A stretch of 46,922 bases of DNA. Origin: a virus. Every line of letters begins with the position of its first letter. Position 1 is the first letter of the stretch. Of this stretch, positions 7,944 through 41,415 are shown piece by piece. The stretch spans positions 1 to 46,922 of IMG/VR virus record IMGVR_UViG_3300010388_000235. One strand, written 5' to 3'. Made by a program: the position numbers and the translations under genes. Below the pieces are notes generated by a model. That model ran no database searches. It saw only the letters and a program-made list of their open reading frames with translations, and was not told the origin of the DNA.

Positions 7944-10342
7944 TGGCAACAAAATATATCTTTCTACGTAGTGGAACAGTATGGCAAATACCTACTGATT
8001 ATGACCCAACAGTCGCAGCCACTTTTTGGTGTATTGGCGGCGGTGGCGGCGGTGGTAGAAGAACTAGTGGTACGGCAACAACTGGTGGCGGTGGCGGCGG
8101 TGGCGGCGCTCTATCTACATCATCAATTACACTAGTAGCTGGCGCACCTTTATTTTATTCAATTGGTGCTGCTGGTGCTGGTGCTTCGTCAAATTCTACT
8201 GATGGTGGAACTGGTGGCGACACTTGGATAAACTGGAATACTTCTACAAATACTTCTACAAATACTCCACCAACATCAACTGGAACTGGTATTCTTGCAA
8301 AAGGTGGTGCTGGTGGTAGTGGTGCTTCTAGCGGAAATGGTGGAGCAGGTGGCGCTGCTGCTAGTGGATTTGGTACTACAAAAACTAGTGGTGGCACTGG
8401 TGGAACAGCAACTTCTCATGGCGGCGGTGGCGGTGGCGCTGCTGGTAATGATTCTGGTAATGGTTCTAATGGCGGCGGCTCATCAAGTTACGGTGGCGGC
8501 GGTGGAGGTGGTATATTCAGTGGCGGCGGTACTTCTACATCAACGACAGGTGGTTTTGGCGGTCAAAGTCTTGCTGGCGCTTTTGCTTCTGGTGGTGCAG
8601 CTAATGCTAGTGGTGGTAGTGGTGCCGTAGGTGGCGGTGGCGGCGGTGGTGGTGGTTCTACTAACTCTACTACTGCTGGTAGTGGCGGCGCTGGTGGTGC
8701 TAATACAGCAACCTTTAGTACTATTAGTGGACAAATTGGACCGTCTGGTGGCGGTGGTGGCGGCGGCGGATCATTGACTGCTGCTACACAAGTCGGTGGT
8801 CAAGCTGATCTTGCTGGTTCTGGTGGCGGTGGTGGCGGTGGTTCTGCTGCTGCTGGTTCTAGTGCATCAAGTGGTGGCAGAGGTGGTGCTGGCGCAATTA
8901 TTGTACTTTACACAGTAAAACCAAGCGTAAAGACTGTTGTTCTTACTTCAGGTTCAACATGGACTGTTCCAAATGATTGGACCAATTCTGGTGCCAGTAT
9001 TATAGCAATAGGCGGTGGCGGCGGTGGTGCTCGTGCTGCTTTTGGTGGTGGCGCTGGTGGCGGTGGTGGCGGATTGTCTGCCGTTACTAATATGAATTTA
9101 TTTGGTGGACTATCAACAGGAAATACTCTTTACTATTCAATTGGTGCTGGTGGTTCTGGCGCAACTGCAAACAACACTTCTGGTGCTACTGGTGGTGATA
9201 CTTGGGTAAATAGAGTATCAGCATCAATACCTTCATCAGCTACTGATGGTGCTCTTGCAAAAGGTGGCGTTGGTGGTGCTGCTGGCACTGGTGGCGCTGG
9301 TGGCGCTGGTGGTGCTGCTGCATCTGGCGTAGGAACTATAAAGAAAAGTGGTGGTGCTGGTGGTAATGCTCAAGGAACAGCTTCGTTTAGTGGTTCTGGT
9401 GGTGGTTCTGCTGCATCTATTCTAAGTGATGGTGGTGCTGGCACTTCAGGAAGTATTAACTTATATGGTTATAATGGCGGTCAAGGTGGCGGCGTAAATG
9501 GTCCTGCAACTGGTCTGGCTGGATTACAAAGTGCTGGGGGTCTTGGATTTGATGGTAAACCACAAGGTACAAGTACTGGTGGTTTCGGTGCAACATTAAA
9601 CGCTGGTGGTGCTGGCGTAGCTGGTCCCGGCATAGAGTTCACAGCTACTATTGGTGGATCATCATATGGTTCTGGCGGTGGTGGTGCTGGCGGTGCTGTT
9701 AGTGGCGGCACTGGTAGTGCAGGTGCATTTATTGGCGGCGGCGGTGGCGGTGGCGGTGGTTCTGCTTCTGCTGGTACTAGTGGAAGTGGTGCTGCTGGTG
9801 CTGCTGGTGCTATTATCATTCAGTATATACCATATACATTACCACAATATACAGCAAATGGTTCAATAACATTGTATAATATCCAACAAGTATTTGGTGG
9901 TTCTACTCCTATCAGCTTAAGTGAATACTATGCTGGTGGTGTATACGTGTATGCTGGTGCTACTGGCACAAATGGTGCAATCCCAACAAGTGGAGCTATT
10001 AGCATTAGCAACTTCTATGGTGCATCTGCAACCCCACCACTATCAGTGAGCGCAACAAATGTTAGTGGTCAAAATCTTGGATTTCCACTATGTGGTTCGG
10101 TCTCTGGCTCAACATCTACTACAGTTACTGGCGGTGCCTCACCATTTACATATGCATGGTCACAGCTTTCTGGTGATTCGATGAGTATTAATAGTACTAC
10201 TGCACAAAATCCATCATTTTCAGCTACTGTATGTGATGGCGCTGGAATTGCAGCCGTATGGCAAGTTGTAGTGACAGATTCAAATAACAACACTGCATCT
10301 GATACAATTACAGTTGATCTTGATTACGTTTCTACACAATAA
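7943..10342 (+). CDS. Glycine-rich tail adhesin with two repeated modules
   Basis: A 799-residue protein. Two homologous modules follow each other: residues ~1-330 begin TKYIFLRSGTVWQIP and ~331-635 begin KTVVLTSGSTWTVPNDW. Each has a CIGGGGGGG or AIGGGGGGA strand followed by many poly-Gly blocks and ends GAGAIIVLY or GAAGAIIIQY. The poly-Gly layout is like phage tip adhesins that pack as polyglycine-II helices. Next comes a segment with YGASATPP, then a C-terminal Ig/PKD-like domain (SPFTYAWSQLSGDS, ending VTDSNNNTASDTITVDLDY). Likely a distal tail adhesin. The GGN-rich coding DNA is prone to recombination, which may vary host range. Confidence 0.75.
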   Translation: MATKYIFLRSGTVWQIPTDYDPTVAATFWCIGGGGGGGRRTSGTATTGGGGGGGGALSTSSITLVAGAPLFYSIGAAGAGASSNSTDGGTGGDTWINWNTSTNTSTNTPPTSTGTGILAKGGAGGSGASSGNGGAGGAAASGFGTTKTSGGTGGTATSHGGGGGGAAGNDSGNGSNGGGSSSYGGGGGGGIFSGGGTSTSTTGGFGGQSLAGAFASGGAANASGGSGAVGGGGGGGGGSTNSTTAGSGGAGGANTATFSTISGQIGPSGGGGGGGGSLTAATQVGGQADLAGSGGGGGGGSAAAGSSASSGGRGGAGAIIVLYTVKPSVKTVVLTSGSTWTVPNDWTNSGASIIAIGGGGGGARAAFGGGAGGGGGGLSAVTNMNLFGGLSTGNTLYYSIGAGGSGATANNTSGATGGDTWVNRVSASIPSSATDGALAKGGVGGAAGTGGAGGAGGAAASGVGTIKKSGGAGGNAQGTASFSGSGGGSAASILSDGGAGTSGSINLYGYNGGQGGGVNGPATGLAGLQSAGGLGFDGKPQGTSTGGFGATLNAGGAGVAGPGIEFTATIGGSSYGSGGGGAGGAVSGGTGSAGAFIGGGGGGGGGSASAGTSGSGAAGAAGAIIIQYIPYTLPQYTANGSITLYNIQQVFGGSTPISLSEYYAGGVYVYAGATGTNGAIPTSGAISISNFYGASATPPLSVSATNVSGQNLGFPLCGSVSGSTSTTVTGGASPFTYAWSQLSGDSMSINSTTAQNPSFSATVCDGAGIAAVWQVVVTDSNNNTASDTITVDLDYVSTQ

Positions 10343-38726: not shown

Positions 38727-38803
38727 GCTCCCATAGCTCAACTGGATAGAGTACGAGTCTTCTAAACTTGGGGTTGCAGGTTCGAACCCTGCTGGGAGCA
38801 CCA
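38727..38803 (+). tRNA. tRNA-Arg (anticodon TCT)
   Basis: A 77-base cloverleaf: acceptor GCTCCCA/TGGGAGC, D arm with AGCTCAACTGGATAGAGT, anticodon loop CTTCTAA with TCT, T arm with GGTTCGAACC, and an encoded CCA. It reads AGA codons, often enriched in A/T-richer phages compared with their hosts. Confidence 0.95.
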
Positions 38804-39897: not shown

Positions 39898-39990
39898 GCA
39901 CCCGTAGCTCAATGGTAGAGCGGTGGTTTTATAAACCATGATCCCCAGATTAGGGAACGGTTGTAGGTTCGAGTCCTACCGGGTGCACCA
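39898..39990 (+). tRNA. tRNA with TAT anticodon and long variable region
   Basis: A 93-base tRNA: acceptor GCACCCG/CGGGTGC, D stem GCTC/GAGC with AATGGTA loop, anticodon stem GTGGT/ACCAT around TTTATAA (anticodon TAT at 39930-39932, Ile AUA), T stem GTAGG/CCTAC with TTCGAGT, CCA encoded. The variable region is 23 bases (39940-39962) with a TCCC/GGGA stem, as in class II tRNAs (Leu, Ser, Tyr), which is unusual for Ile. Amino-acid identity is therefore uncertain. Confidence 0.85.
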
Positions 39991-39994
39991 TAAT

Positions 39995-40068
39995 GCTCTG
40001 GAAGCTTTAAAGTGAAGCCAGCCGCTCATAACGGCTAGAAGGCGGGGCAGTACCGTCACGGAGTACCA
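39995..40068 (+). tRNA. Degenerate tRNA with CAT anticodon
   Basis: Folds as a complete 74-base cloverleaf: acceptor GCTCTGG/ACGGAGT (four Watson-Crick pairs, two wobbles, one mismatch), D stem GCTT/AAGC, anticodon stem AGCCG/CGGCT with loop CTCATAA (CAT at 40027-40029), 4-base variable loop, T stem GGCGG/CCGTC, and A-CCA. But the D loop (TAAAGTG) lacks GG, the T loop (GGCAGTA) lacks TTC, and base 8 is A. It may be a diverged tRNA-Met/Ile2, or a tRNA-like element. The anticodon stem lacks the three G-C pairs of initiators. Confidence 0.6.
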
Positions 40069-40953: not shown

Positions 40954-41415
40954 ATGTCTTTTGTTGAATATGCTGAAAAAGAACTTGACCTAATCGGTAT
41001 GACTGATGATAGTGAAGATGAAATGAACCTTGCCATGCGTGATCATATTCTTCGTATGATACGTGTATTTTCTCAAGAAGGCCACAGTGGCTTTTCTGCT
41101 TCCTATGCAGTTTCATGTCTTGAAAAGCTTCTTCGCTATGAACCACTTTCACCCCTAACTGGTGAGGATGATGAGTGGATGGAAGTTGGTATGGCACATG
41201 GTGGTGATCAGCCATTTTATCAGAACAAGCGTTGTGGGCGTGTTTTCAAGGATGAAAACGGCGCATACGATATCGATGGTATCATTTTCTGGGAATGGTA
41301 TACTGATCCAGAAACTGGTGAAAAATATAAGTCACATTTCACTTGCAAAGAGAGTCGTGTTCCTGTAGAGTTCCCTTATACACCAAAGACAGAGTATAAG
41401 GAACGAATCGGATGA
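40954..41415 (+). CDS. Conserved phage hypothetical protein
   Basis: A 153-residue member of a family frequent in phages. SFVEYAEKELDLIGM at the start, FSQEGHSGFSASYAVSCLEK, then LLRYEPLSPLTGEDDEW, RCGRVFKDENGAYDIDG and RVPVEFPYTPK are its fixed blocks. Function unknown. It has a TTGATATATT start signal and overlaps the HAD gene by four bases. Confidence 0.75.
   Translation: MSFVEYAEKELDLIGMTDDSEDEMNLAMRDHILRMIRVFSQEGHSGFSASYAVSCLEKLLRYEPLSPLTGEDDEWMEVGMAHGGDQPFYQNKRCGRVFKDENGAYDIDGIIFWEWYTDPETGEKYKSHFTCKESRVPVEFPYTPKTEYKERIG

Follow-up and report, generated by a model that had tools for sequence, protein, structure and literature searches.

The literature closest to the present element comprises a review of non-canonical tRNAs (PMC7609411), a report on phage tRNAs that escape anticodon nucleases through the anticodon loop (PMC10264068), and work on tRNA provisioning by jumbo phages (PMC7824862). 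The elbow contacts G18-Psi55, G19-C56, and T54-A58 are nearly constant in cellular tRNAs (PMC7609411). Described exceptions are tRNA-Pyl, which is without G18 G19 and the TPsiC motif, and the Type II mitochondrial tRNAs, in which G18 G19 and TPsiC are unconserved (PMC7609411); the element described here resembles both in these respects. In the present study, we analyzed a window of 46,922 nucleotides (positions 1-46,922 of the IMG/VR virus record IMGVR_UViG_3300010388_000235) and a 74-base element on its plus strand at 39995-40068. We consider it probable (roughly 0.72) that the element is a translation-competent phage tRNA(CAT) with a rewired elbow, present in the window as a recently acquired copy.

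The sequence, coordinates, and arms of the element were all as the original prediction had listed them. The 5' acceptor strand GCTCTGG (39995-40001) is followed by A8 A9 (40002-40003), the D stem GCTT/AAGC (40004-40007 and 40015-40018) with the D-loop TAAAGTG (40008-40014), a single C, the anticodon arm AGCCG-CTCATAA-CGGCT (40020-40036; anticodon CAT at 40027-40029), the variable loop AGAA (40037-40040; 4 nt across the family), the T arm GGCGG-GGCAGTA-CCGTC (40041-40057), the 3' acceptor strand ACGGAGT (40058-40064), and the discriminator A73 with an encoded CCA (40065-40068). The D (4/4), anticodon (5/5), and T (5/5, one G-U) stems are complete, the first two as predicted. However, the acceptor stem has 6/7 pairs, with the wobbles G1-U72 and U5-G68 and a mismatch, G7 x A66, that the prediction of a full cloverleaf had passed over. 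The G-U at 1-72 is also present as predicted; however, it was wrongly taken for a defect, being the commonest first pair in the element's own subtype (13/27). U33, A37, CCA, and a discriminator consistent with the isotype agree with a general tRNA. In contrast, the canonical elbow bases (G18 G19; T54 T55 C56; U8-A14) are replaced: the D-loop is without GG, the T-loop is without TTC, as had been noted, and A8/U14 is found at 8-14. A8 and U14 (40008), which together appear to substitute for the usual U8-A14 pair, are invariant in the 27-member subtype, which was collected with a pattern that fixed A8/U14. The element fits a rewired-elbow class by its T-loop (GGCRGNA in place of TTCRANN), its A18 G19 D-loop, which is usual in CAT members, and A17/U59.

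The unconstrained minimum-energy fold of the element is the cloverleaf, with an energy that is itself unremarkable (z -1.5). In 200,000 base shuffles, its 20 pairs were never reached in the same geometry. The only other window position with at least 20 pairs, at 9648 (21 pairs), lies in a Gly-rich repeat that does not itself fold as a cloverleaf. A chance cloverleaf was rejected on the shuffles together with the covariation of relatives' stems. Universal elbow features are built into tRNA finders; ARAGORN made no call and Rfam RF00005 gave no report even at E<=10, in agreement with the low score that had been foreseen. Scores of 38-42 bits with RF00005 were obtained for some members of the class. 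The covariance model R1, which like the class GGCRGNA was defined in the present analysis, gave the element 65.6 bits (E 8.8e-18), the element itself being in the training set. The element is a real virus-encoded tRNA.

Pattern scans of IMG/VR retrieved approximately 130 relatives that share the T-loop GGCRGNA. Their D-loop is without GG and reads AAnAGTA, or TAAAGTG in the subtype of the window, and they cover about 20 anticodons. One of these, L019, was found with a pattern that fixed loop bases only; each of its stems differs in sequence, yet is re-paired. Wider scans gave 150 matches, 135 of which score at least 18/23 as a cloverleaf with CCA and the remainder 10-17; L017, L018, and the other matches below 18/23 were regarded as chance and dropped. 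The fetched loci contain 141 nonredundant tRNAs with this T-loop. The D-loop was left free in the search for CAT members, and nearly all of these have AG, not GG, near 18-19. Members, many of them from metagenomes, were sought with loop-fixing patterns and then filtered on cloverleaf score, and loop invariance within the class is therefore not itself evidence. The results given below for 17-59, 18-55, 19-56, and 54-58 either are independent of pattern-fixed bases or leave out the pattern class.

Class members occur mainly in virus contigs. The CAT pattern had no match in GTDB genomes, and an any-anticodon pattern had 15 real matches among the genomes of 84,980 bacterial and archaeal species, including the isolate Chthoniobacter flavus; where examined, these sit within or near tRNA arrays. 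There was also one half-length plasmid match. Isolate phages carry members annotated as plain tRNAs, such as the tRNA-His(GTG) of Streptomyces phage Jay2Jay, which is of the AAAAGTA/GGCAGTA type. Blastn with the element region, or with joined members in annotated phages, mainly returned ordinary tRNAs; one match, the tRNA-Gln of Pseudomonas phage EPA1, has an ordinary elbow. We found no description of a rewired-elbow class in the open-access literature searched (subscription papers lay outside the search), and the group is apparently large and undescribed. The class shows that finders miss or under-score many phage tRNAs.

The original prediction had made compensatory covariation among relatives its own test, and covariation was found. 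In a gap-free alignment of 82 distinct 74-mers, 95% of the cells of the cloverleaf plus 17-59 are paired, against 52% after shuffling. Two-sided changes occur in 785 cells (243 shuffled) and at 21/21 stem pairs. The covariation score of 1.08 drops to 0.24 on shuffling and to at most 0.16 when slid. Twenty-eight nonredundant sequences belong to the window's subtype, which is marked by A8 A9 and the D-loop TAAAGTG; most are Lys(TTT) or Trp(CCA). Among 27 subtype sequences, 97% of the cells are paired and 20/21 pairs show two-sided change; no shuffle was as high. The window copy is identical to its six kin and hence adds no covariation of its own. Comparison shows that the cloverleaf of the class is maintained through compensatory change. 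Among the options originally offered, a tRNA with unusual elbow chemistry is borne out by the same non-canonical D- and T-loops in the approximately 130 relatives, with all stems re-paired. In contrast, a decaying tRNA is contradicted by the stem covariation. Such a pseudogene could account for the acceptor mismatch, the failure of finders, and an overlap with the end of a reading frame in donor phages. However, it is very improbable given that distant phages have covarying stems and identical loops, that the same loops occur in many isotypes, and that a G1-U72 pair is the subtype norm; stems broken in relatives, which would be expected of a pseudogene, were not seen, 97% of cells in the subtype being paired.

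The strongest covariation outside the stems links D-loop position 17 with T-loop position 59 (A-T 38, C-C 23, T-A 11, T-T 8). For the other elbow contacts, we searched every fetched locus for generic cloverleaves (918 distinct tRNAs) and tabulated 777 neighboring tRNAs with the GGCRGNA class, the basis of locus fetching, left out. The T-loop is TTCRANN in 467 of these and something else in 310. Since the script places 18/19 ambiguously in longer (8-nt) D-loops, only tRNAs with a 7-nt D-loop were tabulated for 18-55 (G-U 170, A-G 60, G-C 11) and 19-56 (G-C 220, A-U 12, U-A 7). For 54-58, all 777 were used (U-A 612, A-U 80, A-A 35, G-G 19). Mutual information was 0.76 (18-55), 0.48 (19-56), and 0.69 (54-58), with cross terms of approximately 0. 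By comparison, the class is shown to swap its elbow bases jointly, with A18-G55 for G18-U55 and G54-G58 for U54-A58, while G19-C56 is kept. T-loops fall into discrete states, GGCRGNA (141), YGCRANN (98), and AGCRWNR (61), against TTCRANN (467). Rewired elbows were also present in L014 and L016, loci that were fetched by protein rather than by a tRNA pattern. Near-identical phages differ at one locus in their Gln(TTG): that of L003, L005, and L006 is ordinary, and that of L004 and L007 combines GGCGGGG with AG in the D-loop. At another, the CAT tRNA is ordinary in L009 and L012 and rewired in the window. Going by these loci, elbow type is switched between close relatives at a single locus.

These patterns may also be read as relaxed constraint. 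TrmA and TruB are host enzymes that modify the elbow at 54 and 55, respectively. Under relaxed constraint, the elbow contacts would be needed, whereas the bases required by host modification enzymes or other readers would not, and pairs would drift compensatorily without positive selection. Several pair types occur independently at each position, as drift under a pairing constraint would give, and types are mixed freely in many arrays. However, a few discrete T-loop states dominate instead of a continuum, and near-identical phages differ in all parts of the elbow set simultaneously. We regard this explanation as rather unlikely, although it deserves more weight than the other rivals considered in the present study.

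The window copy itself is probably a recent acquisition in the form of a 78-bp block (39991-40068, +). An exact scan of IMG/VR found this block with 100% identity in six phage contigs (L002-L007) with unrelated flanks; outside the block, their similarity to the window is patchy, at approximately 76% in the major capsid gene. In these contigs, the first 25 bases of the block form the end of a 67-residue reading frame, the stop of which lies inside the tRNA D arm, and the rest of this frame is missing from the window. The block in the window is placed between the CCA of an ordinary tRNA-Ile(TAT) (39898-39990, +), directly upstream, and the next gene. The same place is occupied by an ordinary tRNA-Met in the relatives L009 and L012. 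The identity of the block in otherwise dissimilar phages and the ordinary tRNA-Met of these relatives are the grounds for the proposed recent acquisition. The 20 bases around the element's anticodon arm are those of the ordinary tRNA-Met of L009. Since the anticodon arm matches this tRNA and the body belongs to the Lys/Trp-type subtype, the window tRNA may be a chimera of the two. An ordinary tRNA-Arg(TCT) lies at 38727-38803 (+); this and the tRNA-Ile(TAT) were detected in the ARAGORN/Rfam search. Approximately 0.9 kb downstream of the element, at 40954-41415 (+), a gene encodes a Tad3-family anti-Thoeris protein (Type I Thoeris inhibitor; Pfam PF25185, 135.9 bits against a cut-off of 27), and the neighborhood is thus an anti-defence one.

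Other unusual RNAs were noted in relatives. The relative L008 has a group I intron at 1251-1589 (98.8 bits). Elements similar to tRNA-Arg(TCT) at L004:1344-1419 (also in L005) and L008:5502-5581 have an ordinary T arm, seemingly no D arm, and a 20-23-nt stretch between the anticodon and T arms. ARAGORN missed them; the Rfam tRNA model gave 42 bits for the L004 element, and the L008 element, whose minimum-energy fold is not a cloverleaf, gave a weak match to tRNA-Sec alone. Inside tRNA arrays, at L119:9273-9386 and L134:9175-9292, YrlA (Y RNA-like) was matched weakly, below the cut-off.

The discriminator in each isotype is the one that its ordinary counterparts have (Ala A, Asp G, Asn G, Cys U, Trp G, and His mostly C). 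G-1/C73 is present in 17/31 tRNA-His with an alternative elbow, and a weak first pair in 28/38 alternative tRNA-Gln against 66/413 other alternative tRNAs. A partner with the same anticodon in the same locus was found for 44/402 alternative (11%) and 39/423 ordinary (9%) tRNAs. Since it is unusual for the two kinds to have the same anticodon within a locus, both are considered to contribute to one decoding set. Charging signals that fit the anticodons, together with rare duplication in the array, make these molecules look like working tRNAs rather than decoys. On the same two grounds, we infer that the element in the window is aminoacylated and used in translation during infection. The original prediction had allowed for a mimic or decoy, an uncharged element absorbing a host nuclease, formylase, or modification enzyme. 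The missing elbow bases, the weak first pair, and the anti-defence gene nearby would suit such a role. However, we consider it quite unlikely because the relatives, with about 20 anticodons, carry the discriminators and charging signals that match these, have U33 and an encoded CCA, and rarely duplicate an ordinary tRNA of the array. A formylase decoy in particular fails because the GGG/CCC run of initiators is absent from the anticodon stem, and because G1-U72 is no more than a common first pair within the family.

The working tRNA(CAT) that we favor is probably charged with methionine. The anticodon alone fits both methionine and the alternative, lysidine-Ile (TilS); methionine is the likelier because a tRNA-Ile(TAT) lies next door. 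An initiator tRNA-fMet was considered and rejected for the element, which has a G1-U72 wobble instead of a mismatch and a stem, AGCCG/CGGCT, without the G29-G31/C39-C41 run. Separately, the CAT members L023, L030, L042, L046, L047, and L026 have a 1-72 mismatch (C-C, A-C, or U-U), and L047 also has a GGG/CCC anticodon stem. CAT members with this mismatch are possible phage initiator tRNAs with a rewired elbow.

We speculate on the mechanism as follows. The phage tRNA would keep its L shape while exchanging the universal elbow contacts for other matching contacts; the covarying 17-59 contact would join the D- and T-loops, and the window subtype would add A8/U14 for U8/A14. Such a rewired tRNA would be charged and used in translation during infection, and the rewiring would hide it from some host factor that recognizes tRNAs by the consensus elbow, for example a tRNA-attacking defence effector. 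That the rewiring was selected because the tRNA is thereby hidden with its L shape kept is a tentative suggestion. Held more tentatively still is an arms race over the elbow, in which phages and mobile tRNA arrays rewire 18-55, 19-56, and 54-58 as interchangeable sets and spare their own tRNAs from an elbow-reading, tRNA-destroying host defence. The tRNA array of Chthoniobacter flavus, which has rewired members, adjoins genes for TROVE/Ro60 (L189:7635-8669), a Lon-like protease, and an IetA-like ATPase. This setting and that of Tad3 in the window fit an escape from tRNA-attacking defences, without proving it. No nuclease is known to read the elbow, and none was described in the literature searched. 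Cas12a3 binds the backbone of the T arm and the CCA tail, and still acts when the loops are lost; it is therefore not an obvious elbow reader. The ordinary elbow persists in approximately half of the tRNAs of the same arrays; for this reason, and because no elbow-reading nuclease was found, the escape motive is a conjecture.

RNase P also reads the tRNA elbow. Rewired tRNAs may be processed or used by phage-encoded partners, such as a phage RNase P RNA or a ligase, as an orthogonal system. RNase P RNA was detected in 6/42 array-bearing virus records (4 over the Rfam cut-off), and the Chthoniobacter array adjoins TROVE/Ro60. However, 36/42 records, many of them fragments, have no RNase P RNA, and an Rfam search covering 10.9 kb of the window returned none; we consider this system unlikely, if less so than a decoy. 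Rewired arrays together with a bacterial RNase P RNA were observed in L228-L231 (the records of L108, L074, L220, and L026).

Functional-looking tRNAs that swap elbow pairs by compensatory change across about 20 anticodons may serve as a direct test of elbow readers, and distinguish among modification enzymes, RNase P, the ribosome, and defence nucleases as candidates. The rewired class may also help explain why phages carry tRNAs.

Compared with the canonical bacterial elongator tRNA (RF00005), the class has the same 7/4/5/5 cloverleaf, U33, 7-nt anticodon loop, encoded CCA, and isotype-matching discriminator; it differs in having GGCRGNA for TTCRANN and AG for GG in the D-loop. The phage tRNAs that escape anticodon nucleases similarly have altered conserved positions, and evasion of host attack was proposed for them; however, their changes are in the anticodon loop, and the D- and T-loops are nowhere mentioned in that report (PMC10264068). 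In tRNA-Pyl, the acceptor and D stems are one base apart, the D-loop has 5 nt, the anticodon stem is elongated, and the variable loop has 3 nt (PMC7609411). The corresponding values for the element are two bases, 7 nt, 5 bp, and 4 nt, and with the anticodon CAT instead of CTA, assignment to tRNA-Pyl was rejected. The C16-C59 or U16-U59 contact between the D- and T-loops of tRNA-Sec (PMC7609411) resembles the 17-59 pairs of the rewired class, which include C-C and U-U, whereas the class has the ordinary 7/5 fold and a 4-nt variable loop. Type II mitochondrial tRNAs are without a D-/T-loop contact (PMC7609411). In contrast, the elbow contacts of the rewired class covary and are thus kept in an altered form.
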